From an uncultured Pelagibacteraceae bacterium (GTDB taxonomy: Bacteria > Pseudomonadota > Alphaproteobacteria > Pelagibacterales > Pelagibacteraceae), in the NCBI GenBank assembly GCA_902572605.1, contig CACGGD010000006.1, positions 1 to 43,409 on the forward strand: DNA of 43,409 bases. Reading direction: 5' to 3'. The position numbers and the translations under genes were made by a program. Shown here one piece after another: positions 27,194 to 32,755 of the stretch (position 1 is the stretch's first letter; the number at the start of each line of letters is the position of its first letter). The notes under the pieces were generated by a model that did not search any database, was not told the origin of the DNA, and saw only the letters and a program-made list of their open reading frames with translations.

Positions 27194-28879
27194 ATGAATA
27201 AAATAAAATCCGATATTGAAATAGCAAGAGCTGCAAAAATAAAACCAATTGCAGAAGTTTTAAAAAAATTTAACATTTCTGATGATCCCTTTACCTTTAG
27301 TCCTATGGGACGCCATATAGGAAAACTTAATTTAGATTTTATTTCCACATTAAAAGAAAAAAAAAATAATTTAATTTTGGTTACTGCTATAACTCCAACT
27401 CCAGCTGGGGAAGGTAAAACAACTATAGCAGTTGGTCTTAGCGATGGTTTAAATAAAATTGGAAAACAATCTATAGTTTGTTTAAGAGAACCTAGTCTAG
27501 GACCTGCTTTTGGAATGAAGGGTGGAGCCGCTGGAGGAGGTTACGCACAAGTCATCCCAATGGAACAAATCAATTTGCACTTCACAGGTGATTTTCACGC
27601 TATAACTTCAGCTCATAATTTACTTTCTGCTTTAATAGATAATCACATATATTGGGGAAATAAATTAAATATAGACCCCAAAAATATTGTATGGAAAAGA
27701 GTATTAGATTTAAATGATCGATCACTTAGAAAAATAGAAATTAATCTTGAAAAGTTAAAAACTAACACACCTAGAAATGATAGTTTTGATATCACTGTTG
27801 CTTCAGAAGTTATGGCAATTTTTTGCTTATCAAATAGTATTCAGGACTTAGAAAAAAAAATAGGAAATATTACAGTTGCATACACTAAAGATAAAAAGCC
27901 TATTTATGCAAAAGATTTAAAAGCTCAAGGACCAATGACTGTACTTCTTAAAGAAGCTATTAGACCTAATGTGGTACAAACTCTTGAAAATAATTTAGCC
28001 ATTATTCATGGTGGACCATTTGCAAATATTGCTCATGGGTGTAATTCTATTCTAGCAACAAAAACTGCATTAAAATTATCTGAATATGTTATTACAGAAG
28101 CTGGTTTTGGTGCTGACCTTGGAGCTGAAAAATTTTTAGATATCAAGTGCCGTAAAGGAGAATTGCAACCTAGTTGTATCGTTCTAGTAGCAACAATTAG
28201 AGCTTTAAAAATGCATGGGGGAGTAGAGAAAGATGAGCTTAAAAAAGAAAATTTAGAGGCACTTAAAAAAGGCCTTCCTAACCTTGAACGACATATTGAA
28301 AATATTAAAAAATTTGGTTTAGACTTAGTTGTAGCGGTTAATTATTTCGCCTCAGATACTGATAATGAAGTAAAAACTATCCAGGACTTTTGTTCAAAAC
28401 TCGGAGTTAAAGCGTGTCTTTGCACACAGTGGTCAGATGGCGGAAATGGGACTAAAGACTTAGCTAATCAAGTAGTTGAATTAACCAATAAGAGCAACAA
28501 AAGTAAATTTAAATACTTGTATTCAGATGAAATCTCAATTTTAGAAAAAATAGAGAGAATCGCAAAAGAAATTTATAGAGCAAAAGGCATAGATATAGAT
28601 GAAAAAATTAAAGAACAAATAAAAAAGATTGAAAAAGATGGATTTAGAAAATTTCCAGTTTGTATTGCAAAAACTCAATATAGCTTTTCTACAGACTCTA
28701 AAGTGAAAGGAGCTCCTTCAGATCATAAATTATCTATTAGAGAAGTAAGATTATCAAGTGGAGCAGAATTTATAGTCGTTGTTTGTGGATCTATAATGAC
28801 TATGCCGGGACTTCCAAGAGTTCCATCTGCTGACAATATTAAATTAAATAAAAAAGGTGAGATCGAAGGTTTATTTTAA
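27194..28879 (+). CDS. fhs: Formate-tetrahydrofolate ligase
   Basis: Interconverts formate plus THF plus ATP with 10-formyl-THF plus ADP. It has 561 residues, the normal length. The N-terminus with [16 protein letters not shown] and [13 protein letters not shown] is typical. The P-loop TPAGEGKTT is at 69-77, and [19 protein letters not shown] (98-116) follows. An AAGGA site lies just before the ATG. The neighbours formate dehydrogenase and a MetF-like protein suggest it runs towards formate and ATP when methyl groups are oxidised, as inferred for the LigM-MetF-Fhs set of Sphingobium. It can also supply formyl-THF for fmt and purines. It ends 1 base before the convergent fdh stop. Confidence 0.97.
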
Positions 28880-28880
28880 A

Positions 28881-30080
28881 TTACTTTTTTTTGTATTTTG
28901 CTGCTTCTTCCGATCCACCAGTTGCACTCCCTTTACTGTAAGAATGAGCACCCATTCCTGCTAGTTGGCCATTCTGAACGATTAAATAAGGATCTCTAAT
29001 AGGTTTTTTGTCGAAAAAACATTCTAAGATTTCTCTAACACCTGCAGCATATCTAGCTTGTGCAGACAATGAAGTTCCAGAAGTGTGAGGTGTCATACCG
29101 TGATTTGGCATAGATCTCCAAATGTGATCATTTGGTGCTGGTTGAGGAAACCATACATCTCCAGCATAACCGCTTAATTGACCTGATTTAAGAGCTTTTG
29201 CGATTGCTTCTCTATTACAAATTTTTCCTCTAGCAGTATTAACGATATATGCACCTTTTTTCATTTTACTTATCAATTTATCGTCAAATAAATTTTCTGT
29301 TTCAGGGTGAAGAGGACAATTGATTGTCACAACATCACATACTTTTACTAAAGATTCTACCGAATCGTGAAAAGTTAAATTTAATTCTTTTTCAACTGAG
29401 TCAGGTAATTTATGTCTATCAAAGTAATGAAGATGAACATCAAACGGTTTCATTTTTCTTAAGGCATCTAAACCTATACGTCCAGCAGCAACAGTACCTA
29501 TGTGCATGCCCTCTACATCGTAAGATCTATAAACTGCATCAGCAATATTCCATCCACCTTGATTAACAATATTGTGTTGGTTGTGATAATCTCGCACTAA
29601 AGATAAAATCATCATTACAATGTGTTCTGCTACTGATCTAGAATTACAATAAGTAACCTCAACTACATCTATTTTATTATCCATCGCAGCTTGTAAATCA
29701 ACATGATCAGACCCAATACCTGCAGTAATTGCCATTTTTAAATTTTTTGCAGACTCTATTTTTTCTCTAGTTAAGTAATAAGGCCAGAAAGGTTGAGATA
29801 TAACGATATCTGCATCTACAAGCTCTTTATCTGCTTTACAGCCTTTTGCATCTTTATCGGAAGTTACGACTAGCGTATGACCATTTGACTCTAGAAATTT
29901 TCTTAAACCCAATTCTCCCGAAACGCATCCTAACAATTCTCCAGGATTGAAATCTATTCCCTTAGGTGTTGGTAACGTCATTCCATCAGGATATTTATCT
30001 AGCTTTGGTAAACTAGGTATAGGGTAGCTTTTTGGCATTCCCCCTTTAGGATCATCGTATAAAACACATAGTATTTTCAT
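28881..30080 (-). CDS. fdh: NAD-dependent formate dehydrogenase
   Basis: Metal-free, cytosolic enzyme oxidising formate to CO2 with NAD+. It has 399 residues. By position the protein matches Pseudomonas sp. 101 FDH (numbering from memory): P97/F98 in QPFWP, I122-G123, N146, the catalytic R284 in NTARG, D308, Q313 and H332 in PHTSG. D221-R222 favour NAD over NADP. The NAD-binding fingerprint is GTVAAGRIG (195-203) and the C-terminal AHSYSKG is intact. A GAGGG ribosome-binding site precedes the ATG. It is divergent from the MetF-like gene and shares an operator-like spacer, so it is probably co-regulated with that operon. Confidence 0.97.
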   Translation of the reverse strand: MKILCVLYDDPKGGMPKSYPIPSLPKLDKYPDGMTLPTPKGIDFNPGELLGCVSGELGLRKFLESNGHTLVVTSDKDAKGCKADKELVDADIVISQPFWPYYLTREKIESAKNLKMAITAGIGSDHVDLQAAMDNKIDVVEVTYCNSRSVAEHIVMMILSLVRDYHNQHNIVNQGGWNIADAVYRSYDVEGMHIGTVAAGRIGLDALRKMKPFDVHLHYFDRHKLPDSVEKELNLTFHDSVESLVKVCDVVTINCPLHPETENLFDDKLISKMKKGAYIVNTARGKICNREAIAKALKSGQLSGYAGDVWFPQPAPNDHIWRSMPNHGMTPHTSGTSLSAQARYAAGVREILECFFDKKPIRDPYLIVQNGQLAGMGAHSYSKGSATGGSEEAAKYKKK

Positions 30081-30096
30081 TTTCCCTCGCCATTTA

Positions 30097-30125
30097 TTTG
30101 ACTATTATCAAAGGTCAAAGTCAAA
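30097..30125. promoter_or_regulatory. Inverted repeat in divergent fdh / metF-like promoter region
   Basis: A perfect 7-base inverted repeat, TTTGACT at 30097-30103 and AGTCAAA at 30119-30125, with a 15-base spacer. The right half also holds a tandem TCAAAG/GTCAAA direct pattern. It lies 17 bases from the fdh ATG and about 60 bases before the metF-like ATG, the right place for a dimeric regulator acting on both. No regulator gene is nearby. Confidence 0.5.
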
Positions 30126-30185
30126 CTTTTCTTGCATTGATTTTTCTGGACACCACCTAGGCTTCATTGATATATCCCGAGAAAT

Positions 30186-30914
30186 ATGAAATTTTCATTA
30201 GAAATAACAATGAAGACAGATCTTTCAGTTTTACCAAAGGTTAAAGATGTCTACATAACAATGTTGCCTGGTAATGACTTTAGAGATGTTGCAAAGAAAG
30301 CAAAAGAACTTGTGCAAAATGGGTTTAATCCTGTTCCTCACTTTCCCGCTCGATCAATTAAAAATTTAATAGAATTAAAAGAGTATACTTCTATGTGTAA
30401 AGATTTTGGCGTAAAACAAGCTTTGGTAATTGGAGGAGGTGCCGAACCAATTGGTGATTACCACTGCTCGTTGCAATTATTAGAGACAGGTTTATTTAAG
30501 GGGATGAAAATAGGAATAGCTGGACACCCTGATGGGTCCCCTGATATATCGGATTCAGATTTAGAAAAAGCGATGAAGGATAAAATGCCATTTGCAGATT
30601 ACATTGTTACACAATGGTTATTAGACCCAAAACCTATTAATGATTTTATTTCTAAACAAACTTTACCAGTTCATGTAGGGATTACTGGACCTTTAAAAAT
30701 AAGCAGCTTACTTAAGTTTGCTAGTATTGTTGGCGCAAAAAATTCTCTTAACTTTCTTAAGTCAAACGTAACAAAGGCTGTAGACTTACTAAAACCTAAA
30801 GACCCAAATGAATTAATTGAAAATCTTAAATCAGCTACAGATAATTTTCATATTTACACTTTTGGTGGTTTAAAGGAAACAAACAAATGGTTGGAACAAA
30901 ATAATTATGCCTAA
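30186..30914 (+). CDS. Short MetF-like (methylene-THF reductase superfamily) protein
   Basis: A 242-residue TIM-barrel protein of the methylenetetrahydrofolate reductase superfamily, shorter than MetF (about 290). The first strand FSLEIT contains E6, matching the catalytic glutamate position of MetF. Further matches are NPVPHFPARS (48-57), IGIAGHPDGSPD (109-120), FADYIVTQWLLDP (136-148) and LPVHVGITGP (160-169). The RGD stretch of MetF is replaced by VIGGGAEP (81-88). I infer that it oxidises methyl-THF made by the adjacent methyltransferase or channels folate to it. Its stop overlaps the next gene by 8 bases. The 30186 ATG is preferred over 30210 because it keeps the E6 strand. Confidence 0.82.
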   Translation: MKFSLEITMKTDLSVLPKVKDVYITMLPGNDFRDVAKKAKELVQNGFNPVPHFPARSIKNLIELKEYTSMCKDFGVKQALVIGGGAEPIGDYHCSLQLLETGLFKGMKIGIAGHPDGSPDISDSDLEKAMKDKMPFADYIVTQWLLDPKPINDFISKQTLPVHVGITGPLKISSLLKFASIVGAKNSLNFLKSNVTKAVDLLKPKDPNELIENLKSATDNFHIYTFGGLKETNKWLEQNNYA

Positions 30915-32280
30915 AAAAGTCCCTAATTCTTATAAAGTTGAAAAAGTAAATTACGATAAAGTTAAACACGAAACATCAGTTGACCAATCAGATAGACTAG
31001 TTCCTTATAATTTAAGACAGAGCGGACCAACTAAAGTAGAAATGTTAATATCTACACGGGTAAGAAAATCACCTTACTGGCACCTATCCATGAAAGCCGG
31101 ATGTTATAGAGCTACAGTTTATAATCGTATTTACCATCCTAGAGGTTATGTAAGGCCTGAAAAAGGAGGAGCAATGGTAGAATACCAAGCGATTAAAAAA
31201 CACGTAACGATGTGGAATGTAGCAGTAGAAAGACAAATACGAGTTAAAGGACCTGATGCAGAAAAATTTACAGATTACGTTATTACTAGAGATGCCACAA
31301 AAATTTCTACAATGAGGGGGCGTTATGTTATTCTTTGTAACTATAAAGGGGGAGTTCTCAACGATCCAGTTTTAATGAGAGTAGCTGATGATGAGTTTTG
31401 GTTCAGTTTGTCAGACTCTGATATAGGTTTATATTTACAGGGAGTAAATGCAGATAAAAGATTTGATGTTGAAATAGATGAAATCGATGCTTGTCCTGTT
31501 CAAATACAAGGACCAAAATCAAAAGCATTAATGAATGATTTAATTGGAGATCAAGTTGATCTTGATAATATGCCATTTTACGGTCTAGCTGAAGCAAAAG
31601 TAGGGGGCAGAAGCTGCGTTATTTCTCAATCAGGGTTTTCTGGAGAAGCTGGTTATGAAATTTATCTTAGAAATGCAACTTTGTATGCAGAAGATATGTG
31701 GAATGCTGTACTTAAAGCAGGAAAAAAACATAAATTAATGGTTATAGCTCCGGCTCATCACCGAAGAATTCAAGCAGGAATCTTATCTTGGGGGCAAGAT
31801 ATGGACCAGGAACACAACCCTTTTCAATGTAATTTAGGTTATCAAGTATCATTATCTGGAAAAGGTGAATGGAATAAAAAAACTGACTATGTTGGTAAAG
31901 AGGCTTTAGAGAAAATGAAGCAACAAATTAAAAATGGAGAGAAGCCTTACAAATTACAACTTGTTGGTTTGGAACTGGGAGGAAAACCCATAGAAGATTA
32001 TGCTAATGATTTTTATTTAATATCAAATGCCAATGGCGGTAAACCAGTAGGTTATATTACATCACCATGGTATCATCCGGAAAAGAAAAAAAACATTGCT
32101 ATGGGTTACGTGCCTTTCGAAGGAAACTTGAACAACAATGGTTTTCCAATTGGTAATTTTGGAAAAAAATATAAAGTACATTTACCAAAAAAATATTCTA
32201 GCAAACCTGTTGAAGCTGTGATTGTACCAATCCCATTTACAGAGTCATATAATGCAAATACCAGAGAATCAAAAAAGTAA
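30907..32280 (+). CDS. DmdA/LigM/GcvT-superfamily THF-dependent methyltransferase, substrate unknown
   Basis: A 457-residue folate-dependent demethylase-type enzyme of the aminomethyltransferase (GcvT) superfamily. Residues 48-200 resemble SAR11 DMSP demethylase DmdA: RVRKSPY, YNRIYHPRGY, HVTMWNVAVERQ, NDPV and FSLSDSDIGLYLQG. It is longer than DmdA (about 370), with roughly 40 extra N-terminal residues and a C-terminal barrel domain ending PIPFTESYNANTR, like vanillate/syringate demethylases LigM/DesA (about 470). It is therefore not called DmdA. It probably moves a methyl from an O-, N- or S-methylated compound to THF. The start overlaps the MetF-like gene by 8 bases. Confidence 0.82.
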   Translation: MPKKVPNSYKVEKVNYDKVKHETSVDQSDRLVPYNLRQSGPTKVEMLISTRVRKSPYWHLSMKAGCYRATVYNRIYHPRGYVRPEKGGAMVEYQAIKKHVTMWNVAVERQIRVKGPDAEKFTDYVITRDATKISTMRGRYVILCNYKGGVLNDPVLMRVADDEFWFSLSDSDIGLYLQGVNADKRFDVEIDEIDACPVQIQGPKSKALMNDLIGDQVDLDNMPFYGLAEAKVGGRSCVISQSGFSGEAGYEIYLRNATLYAEDMWNAVLKAGKKHKLMVIAPAHHRRIQAGILSWGQDMDQEHNPFQCNLGYQVSLSGKGEWNKKTDYVGKEALEKMKQQIKNGEKPYKLQLVGLELGGKPIEDYANDFYLISNANGGKPVGYITSPWYHPEKKKNIAMGYVPFEGNLNNNGFPIGNFGKKYKVHLPKKYSSKPVEAVIVPIPFTESYNANTRESKK

Positions 32281-32281
32281 T

Positions 32282-32304
32282 TGATGCTGAAAAAAAAAGT
32301 ATCA
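32282..32304 (+). other. Intercistronic hairpin
   Basis: TGATGCT at 32282-32288 pairs with AGTATCA at 32298-32304 (seven pairs including one G-U) around an A-rich 9-base loop. It sits directly after the stop of the DmdA-like gene and 8 bases before the next ATG. There is no T-run, so it is not a standard terminator; it may protect upstream mRNA or tune translation of the next gene. Confidence 0.4.
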
Positions 32305-32311
32305 TTCGGCA

Positions 32312-32755
32312 ATGGATCAAAAGGACTTTTATAAAATATTCAAACCTCAGCTTACTCCAAAAAAGATGTTGGAACTCGGAGTATTTGGCGGAGCATATTT
32401 TGCTGATGGGGATATTAAAGAATTTCCTAAATCTTGGTTCACAAAAGCAAAATTAAGCAAAACTTTTGATGTAAATCTTAATCGATTTAAAATTGAGTCT
32501 GGCTTATCAAGAAAAGAATGGATTAATAAAGGATGGATATTTAAAGAAGATCCTTTGGGCTGGTTTCAATGGTATTGCAGATTTAAAAATGGAAGACGGA
32601 TTCCAAAAATTGATCAAATTCAAATTAAAAGATGGAAAGCTTTTGGAGATAGACACGGACCTGCAGTGAAAAAAAATTGTGAAGAAGGAGATTTACAATG
32701 TAGAAGAAGACAAAGACAAGCTTTGCTTCAATGGGCTTACAATCCAATTTTTTAG
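32312..32755 (+). CDS. Conserved protein of unknown function, Trp/Arg-rich
   Basis: A 147-residue cytosolic protein without signal peptide or membrane segment. It is rich in Trp, Arg, Gly and Phe. Notable stretches are MLELGVFGGAYFADG (19-33), EFPKSWFTKAKLS, WINKGWIFKEDPLGWFQWYC split over about 70-89, and a C-terminal CRRRQRQALLQWAYNP with two cysteines in NCEEGDLQCRR. I recall similar uncharacterised proteins in many bacteria and some eukaryotes, but can name no function. It follows the DmdA-like gene after 31 bases containing a hairpin, so it may belong to the one-carbon operon. It ends 1 base before the secA stop on the other strand. Confidence 0.82.
   Translation: MDQKDFYKIFKPQLTPKKMLELGVFGGAYFADGDIKEFPKSWFTKAKLSKTFDVNLNRFKIESGLSRKEWINKGWIFKEDPLGWFQWYCRFKNGRRIPKIDQIQIKRWKAFGDRHGPAVKKNCEEGDLQCRRRQRQALLQWAYNPIF

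Follow-up and report, generated by a model that had tools for sequence, protein, structure and literature searches.

A SAR11 aminomethyltransferase paired with metF as a candidate tetrahydrofolate-dependent glycine betaine demethylase

Which methylated compound feeds the tetrahydrofolate (THF)-linked one-carbon genes of a SAR11 bacterium, a member of a group that is very common in the ocean? The question is raised by a contig of an uncultured Pelagibacteraceae bacterium (GCA_902572605.1, contig CACGGD010000006.1, positions 1 to 43,409), here called the window, meaning the whole 43,409-nucleotide stretch. The window is contig C6 of genome G000, a 909-kb assembly that is 82% complete, and it carries adjacent genes for Fhs, a formate dehydrogenase (Fdh), a short MetF-like protein and an aminomethyltransferase (AMT) of the SAR11_1265 type. 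Because the metF-AMT pair and THF-linked oxidation have been known in SAR11 since 2011 (PMC3160333), the module is not new; the new part is the substrate proposed here, glycine betaine (GBT), a major marine osmolyte. AMT is very probably a THF-dependent demethylase of some kind, and GBT is probably its main substrate. Gene identities, linkage, co-occurrence, a separate clade and the lack of a detected alternative in key genomes together make GBT the most likely choice; we infer the substrate, the methyl transfer itself and the directions in which MetF and Fhs run.

Family and phylogeny of the aminomethyltransferase

Pfam places AMT in the GCV_T folate-binding superfamily, as it matches PF01571 with 140.9 bits (cut-off 25.6) and PF08669 with 31.2 bits (cut-off 25.9). 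All eight NCBIfam models that it matches score under their curated cut-offs. AMT reaches 244.4 bits on the DmdA model NF009133 (cut-off 410), on which the true DmdA of the same genome, encoded on contig C2, scores 480.6 bits. The other values are 160.8 bits (cut-off 300) and 140.1 bits (cut-off 236) for the GcvT models NF001567 and TIGR00528, 31.8 bits (cut-off 580) for LigM (NF047885), 43.4 bits (cut-off 800) for DesA (NF047633), and 160 bits (cut-off 1100) for the trimethylamine N-oxide demethylase model. Assignment as GcvT or as a LigM-like protein was rejected on these scores, and assignment as true DmdA on the scores together with the tree described below. A Pfam search of the 457 residues gave no FAD (DAO) N-terminal domain of the kind found in dimethylglycine and sarcosine dehydrogenases, and the top Protein Data Bank (PDB) sequence match is DmdA 3tfh (1.8e-44, residues 49-395). 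An earlier note on this DNA, made by a model from the sequence alone, had described the protein as DmdA/LigM-like while regarding it as neither a normal DmdA nor a normal LigM. Of the first description the DmdA half stands and the LigM half falls; the second agrees with the curated scores and with a position outside the DmdA clade.

A tree of 43 rows was built, including five outgroup domains; two sequences that gave no match (L001 and L251) and a third (L002) were left out. The 14 AMT rows form a single clade with support of 100/100, and ten DmdA rows scoring over the cut-off plus one scoring under it form a separate clade with support of 100/99. The note had held that a grouping within GcvT or true DmdA would speak against its reading, and neither was seen by scores or in this tree, which holds no LigM, DesA or stand-alone GcvT. 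Outside both clades stand additional DmdA-like stand-alone aminomethyltransferases from other alphaproteobacteria (L082-L097), many of which carry the IRKSPYFDATVRWG motif.

AMT is strongly conserved, with a mean column identity of 73% across 11 sequences from several families. Its N-terminal extension of about 45 residues, which DmdA lacks, is conserved as R-x-V-P-x-N-L-R-Q-S-G. D153 aligns with the catalytic Asp of T. maritima GcvT, which we take to be D96, and is invariant in 11/11 and 25/25 rows. Position 104 is Asn in 14/14 AMT rows, whereas each of the 24 further rows in the comparison (10 from DmdA, 14 DmdA-like) has Asp there. Trp 171 is said to confer specificity for dimethylsulfoniopropionate (DMSP) in DmdA (PMC7487153). 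This position (197 in the structure, by spacing) was tried as a marker; it is Phe in 13/14 AMT rows, but DmdA rows hold Trp, Tyr or Phe, and it was not used.

Genetic association with metF and dimethylglycine genes

Every one of the 80 top-ranking named relatives of AMT is of SAR11 type, and nearly all are from Pelagibacteraceae. Among the corresponding SAR11 loci (the best 80 of 591, several of which end early at contig ends), metF adjoins AMT in 80/80, being cut by the contig end in L130. An fhs gene is found no more than about 10 kb from AMT in 39/80, and fdh stands beside metF-AMT in 15/80, all 15 of which also have fhs. The earlier note had held that a lack of conserved linkage among the four genes in related genomes would speak against its reading, and this outcome was not seen either. 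In these loci the metF-AMT pair is constant; close clustering of all four genes belongs to one section of SAR11, as a local layout added to that pair. The MetF-like protein scores 12.6 bits on PF02219, under the Pfam cut-off of 24, and its sole PDB match at 0.001 is a solved methylene-THF reductase chain, 7xg9 (5e-34), which is also the top PDB match of the gammaproteobacterial MetF. Beyond the named loci, AMT orthologs (E ≤ 1e-190) were found in 49/99 genomes of the family. Thirteen of 289 class genomes gave an AMT match of at least 53% identity, two of them (G000 and G003) from the window's own family, and 6 of 398 phylum genomes gave one at E ≤ 1e-90, including the window's genome and one already counted.

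Within the family, a match of at least 79% identity to a dimethylglycine dehydrogenase (DMGDH) of mitochondrial type occurs in 53/99 genomes, some of the matches being fragments. It is present in 49/49 genomes with AMT versus 4/50 without (G029, G068, G088 and G091), and 46 genomes have neither. Shared ancestry inflates these counts, and P values for co-occurrence, which ignore kinship, were not used as proof. In 30/49 genomes a single contig carries AMT and DMGDH no more than 20 kb apart, and in 19 the two are on different contigs. The G000 DMGDH has mammalian dimethylglycine dehydrogenase 4pab as its nearest match (1.4e-201, nearly full length); it is encoded on contig C1, followed by genes resembling those for electron transfer flavoprotein (ETF) and for ETF-quinone oxidoreductase, and the same contig carries soxBDA with a soxG-sized gene. 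The layout is compact in L119, where the ETF genes and DMGDH diverge from metF-AMT with soxA, soxD, soxB and fhs near. A conserved trio lies downstream of AMT in 26-28 of 82 SAR11 loci (L119:12014-15278), encoding a DUF3726 protein, a 556-residue protein lacking a Pfam match and an M19 dipeptidase.

Transport genes enter the picture in L272 (genome G043), where genes for the OpuAC-type binding protein of a betaine transporter and for its permease lead straight into metF-AMT. The order proX-proW-metF-AMT is found in 5/80 named SAR11 loci, with Bhmt near. In the opposite direction L272 encodes Bhmt, a DMGDH paralog, a methyltransferase and a Rieske oxygenase resembling GbcA. There Bhmt is followed directly by the DMGDH paralog (L272:6743-10190), which is distinct from the DMGDH that tracks AMT, and G043 perhaps holds two parallel GBT routes in one genome.

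The surroundings of AMT were also read outside SAR11, in 15 genomes from 11 genera. Seven of the 11 genera (those of G258, G128, G281, G173, G354, G343 and G443) and 11/15 genomes have, within about 10 kb of AMT, a gene resembling DMGDH or dimethylglycine (DMG) oxidase or a sarcosine oxidase (Sox) gene. A rough null based on the fusion-gene count per genome, with the count of G443 assumed to be 4, predicts 0.43 genera (P about 2e-8 for the seven observed). These neighbors represent separate branches. L179 and L185-L187 carry genes related to the SAR11 DMGDH; DMG-oxidase-type genes are found in L180 and L182 (order soxBDAG-DMG oxidase-metF-AMT) and in the gammaproteobacterial L197-L199. In G128 and G355, soxB, soxD, soxA, a soxG-like gene, a DMG-oxidase-type gene, metF and AMT all run in the same direction. 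Three gammaproteobacteria encode GbdR, a regulator of betaine genes, beside AMT (498 bits in G443, 512 in G505 and 501 in G539; cut-off 480), with a serine dehydratase and a DMG-oxidase-like protein also near, called by scanning in G505 and by similarity and open reading frame (ORF) in G443 and G539. The order AMT-metF-fhs is found in G505 and G539. Exceptions aside, AMT is genetically associated with DMG and sarcosine oxidation.

The positions of the genes are collected in Table 1. ORFs and family scores place the four genes as the earlier note had them, with metF and AMT sharing exactly 8 bases (30907-30914) and fdh diverging across a shared spacer, and the gene identities fit the THF-linked demethylation and one-carbon oxidation module that it proposed. 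FolD, which it had noted as absent from the window, was found on another contig (G000:C3, about 76,036-76,854; 45% identity to E. coli FolD). Fhs and MetF are single-copy in the G000 assembly, and Fdh has just two distant relatives there (about 26% identity). An Rfam scan of the window at gathering scores returned one tRNA and nothing else. The 147-residue protein encoded downstream of AMT shows 88-94% identity among 8 close relatives, in which it has the same position (8/80 loci), and a 70% copy lies 9.4 kb past AMT in L142. Given its 8/80 occurrence beside AMT, this ORF is not counted into the module.

Table 1. Features of the locus, in positions of the window
Feature	Position	Strand	Description
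fhs	27194-28879	+	561 aa; NF010030 882 bits (cut-off 652); Fhs, formate-THF ligase
fdh	28881-30080	-	399 aa; NF005750 669 bits (cut-off 329); single-subunit NAD-dependent formate dehydrogenase
Divergent spacer, fdh / metF-AMT	30081-30185		105 bases; no Rfam match
metF-like	30186-30914	+	242 aa; short non-canonical MetF (methylene-THF reductase), by 7xg9 match
AMT	30907-32280	+	457 aa; SAR11_1265 type, GCV_T family; candidate THF-dependent GBT demethylase
147-aa ORF	32312-32755		Inside the stretch read in the earlier note; no Pfam or NCBIfam family

Proposed pathway and competing explanations

In the proposed pathway, AMT would transfer a methyl group from GBT to THF, yielding DMG and 5-methyl-THF. 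By analogy with DmdA, THF would attack a methyl group on a cationic center, GBT being the nitrogen counterpart of DMSP. MetF would oxidize methyl-THF to methylene-THF, FolD would convert this to formyl-THF, Fhs would release formate with a gain of ATP, and Fdh would oxidize formate to CO2 with formation of NADH. DMG, the predicted product of GBT demethylation and the substrate of the associated DMGDH, would pass through DMGDH with ETF and then through sarcosine oxidase to glycine. Demethylation of a quaternary ammonium compound gives methyl-THF; DMGDH and Sox give methylene-THF directly. MetF would be needed because the AMT step yields methyl-THF, and the same requirement, which the DMGDH and Sox products do not impose, may explain why metF is kept with AMT even in genera g1 and g2, which have DMGDH on a separate contig. 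SAR11 cells oxidize GBT methyl groups to CO2, and GBT raises their ATP (PMC3160333).

The mechanism of the first GBT demethylation has been called elusive; it has been solved for one group, and Bhmt has been proposed for SAR11 (PMC12478193, 2025). No PF02574 protein was detected in 19/49 AMT-bearing family genomes, the window's included, so that these have no detected Bhmt or MetH, and six of the 19 are 92-99% complete. They comprise all four AMT-bearing genomes of the window's genus, 12/14 of g2, and G051, G074 and G093 of g4 (97-99% complete). If those genomes use GBT, another enzyme is needed. G000 gave no match to PF02574, PF06253 or PF00848, nor did tblastn of SAR11 Bhmt and Rieske proteins over its whole assembly. 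Neither PF00848 nor PF06253 was matched in G505 or G539, which therefore appear to have no GbcA and no MtgB; of their five PF02574 proteins, four are 21-25% identical to SAR11 Bhmt and one has no match to it. G443 has PF00848 proteins, one of them 45% identical to the SAR11 Rieske oxygenase. We lean slightly toward the view that AMT provides an additional and unrelated way of taking the first step, as a single enzyme that would move the GBT methyl straight to folate with no use of cobalamin, O2 or homocysteine. It would do so in SAR11 lineages where no Bhmt was detected and, beside GbdR, in some gammaproteobacteria, so that all three GBT methyl groups would join one folate oxidation line. If this is true, a gene that has been of unknown substrate since 2011 becomes a marker for GBT-methyl respiration.

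The earlier note had found the substrate not evident; neighborhood and co-occurrence now point to GBT or another quaternary betaine. Gene context cannot settle the specificity of AMT, and several observations weigh against GBT itself. The AlphaFold model is poor (mean pLDDT 50) and gives no guide to the pocket. Outside SAR11, the 10 kb or so around AMT contain neither a DMG nor a sarcosine gene in four of the 11 genera (those of G126, G217, G114 and G736), and in G443 metF is a remnant between AMT and fhs (L197:8771-9167), its middle missing in comparison with the intact copy of G505, which weakens one of the three gammaproteobacterial cases. In the window's own part of SAR11, 18/18 AMT-bearing g1 and g2 genomes have DMGDH on a different contig (G083 is the remaining genome of the 19 so arranged). 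The AMT-DMGDH co-occurrence is raised by the joint loss of many genes within a single part of the family, and a PDB search, which returned no sarcosine dehydrogenase (SARDH) chain among its matches, cannot separate DMGDH from that enzyme. The argument from missing alternatives is limited to some genomes, because of 18 AMT-bearing genomes tested 16 have PF02574, 13 have PF00848 and 1 (G343) has PF06253; the absences in G000 are weak alone, as the genome is 82% complete. L272 also encodes an M24 protein resembling the DMSP lyase DddP (L272:11970-13229; 338 bits, cut-off 600), and OpuAC-type transporters can carry DMSP.

The alternative that survives best is that AMT demethylates some other quaternary or sulfonium compound, such as proline betaine, a choline-type compound, homarine or another sulfonium osmolyte, and shares only a methylated-osmolyte neighborhood with the GBT genes. 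We consider this possible although unlikely. Bhmt lies near AMT in 5/80 SAR11 loci and a GbcA-like Rieske oxygenase in 22/80, so in those loci AMT could have a different betaine as its substrate; moreover, DmdA, the closest known relative of AMT, takes a sulfonium substrate, and the transporter neighbors are of a broad type. Speaking for GBT over such compounds, dimethylglycine-type enzymes recur beside AMT in unrelated genera, and GbdR accompanies it in three gammaproteobacterial genomes, in two of which no other known GBT demethylase was detected. The Rieske gene (L190:11261-12490, L272:10819-11997) diverges from metF in many loci. GbcA is the best model for its product, at 115-125 bits, far under the cut-off of 670, and the oxygenase is a second candidate for a betaine step.

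A housekeeping role, in which AMT would run in reverse, supply or use methyl-THF for methionine synthesis, or act like GcvT, would suit the very high conservation noted above, and is improbable on other grounds. Besides the sub-cut-off GcvT scores, 50/99 family genomes have no AMT ortholog, and the 19 PF02574-free genomes have no MetH to serve; SAR11 is reported to lack both MetE and MetH (PMC12478193). In genomes of the G000 type, the lack of MetH leaves methyl-THF with no evident outlet but oxidation via MetF.

Sun et al. (2011) speculated that AMT takes the second DMSP methyl group, from methylmercaptopropionate (MMPA), in view of its relationship to DmdA and the similar metagenomic abundance of the two (PMC3160333). 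DmdA does score over the cut-off in 42/49 AMT-bearing SAR11 genomes, a figure that also counts against GBT (of the 99 family genomes, 42 have both genes, 7 AMT alone, 5 DmdA alone and 45 neither). Among 17 AMT-bearing genomes tested, however, only 7 have a DmdA over the cut-off, two of these 7 being SAR11, and the top match to the DmdA model is AMT itself in G173, G382, G343, G736, G443 and G505. This occurrence of AMT in genomes lacking a DmdA over the cut-off lowers the MMPA reading, as do the linkage to DMG and sarcosine genes, the general chemistry by which a neutral thioether donates methyl poorly, and the continuation of MMPA through DmdB and DmdC (PMC5069961). We regard it as very unlikely.

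That AMT is a vanillate- or syringate-type O-demethylase acting with MetF and Fhs in the manner of LigM and DesA is hardly credible, for although the pathway logic is alike and the MetF is of the 7xg9 type (presumably the Sphingobium MetF), the LigM and DesA scores are far under their cut-offs and no aromatic-degradation genes were noticed among the neighbors, part of which were annotated. Arsenic demethylation was considered and set aside; the passages of PMC6426599 consulted name no such enzyme.

Comparison with known systems

A known counterpart of the metF-AMT pair is that of Ca. Pelagibacter ubique HTCC1062, for which Sun et al. described the SAR11 THF-linked one-carbon oxidation pathway (PMC3160333). 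There SAR11_1265 appears as a DmdA-related AMT of unknown substrate next to metF SAR11_1264, the GBT steps are assigned to BHMT (SAR11_1173), DMGDH (SAR11_1253) and SarDH (SAR11_1221), and a different AMT, SAR11_1303, is suggested for GBT. In the open-licence literature, subscription papers lying outside the scope, we found no assignment of GBT to an AMT of the SAR11_1265 type. The window has the same kind and order of gene pair as HTCC1062, with orthology suggested by family, adjacency and the published description. The two differ in that HTCC1062 has fhs (SAR11_1285) and a molybdenum formate dehydrogenase elsewhere (PMC3160333), whereas in the window fhs and an NAD-dependent Fdh stand beside the pair. 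Published table values for SAR11_1264/SAR11_1265, which we read as mRNA (0.20/0.12 and 0.10/0.10) and then protein (1.38/1.46 and 1.29/1.30), move together, in line with co-expression; bhmT rises under sulfur limitation (PMC5069961).

With LigM/DesA, MetF and formyl-THF synthetase of Sphingobium the module shares its pathway logic, although AMT reaches just 32 bits with the LigM model and 43 bits with the DesA model. Bhmt (SAR11_1173) and GbcAB are likewise assigned to removal of the first GBT methyl; their folds are unrelated to AMT, and some AMT-bearing genomes give no match to their families. Bhmt uses homocysteine and GbcAB uses O2. The proposed route resembles MtgBCD with MetF2 of Ruegeria pomeroyi (PNAS 2025, PMC12478193), in which the GBT methyl is passed to THF and oxidized by a MetF-type enzyme; MtgBCD differs in requiring three proteins and cobalamin, and its MtgB family, PF06253, is the one matched in a single AMT-bearing genome of 18. 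Like DmdA (NF009133; 3tfh), AMT belongs to the GCV_T family and is expected to carry out THF-dependent methyl transfer. Unlike DmdA, it has S-G-E or T-G-E in place of S-K-Q, N104 in place of Asp, an N-terminal extension, a dimethylglycine-gene context and a clade of its own.

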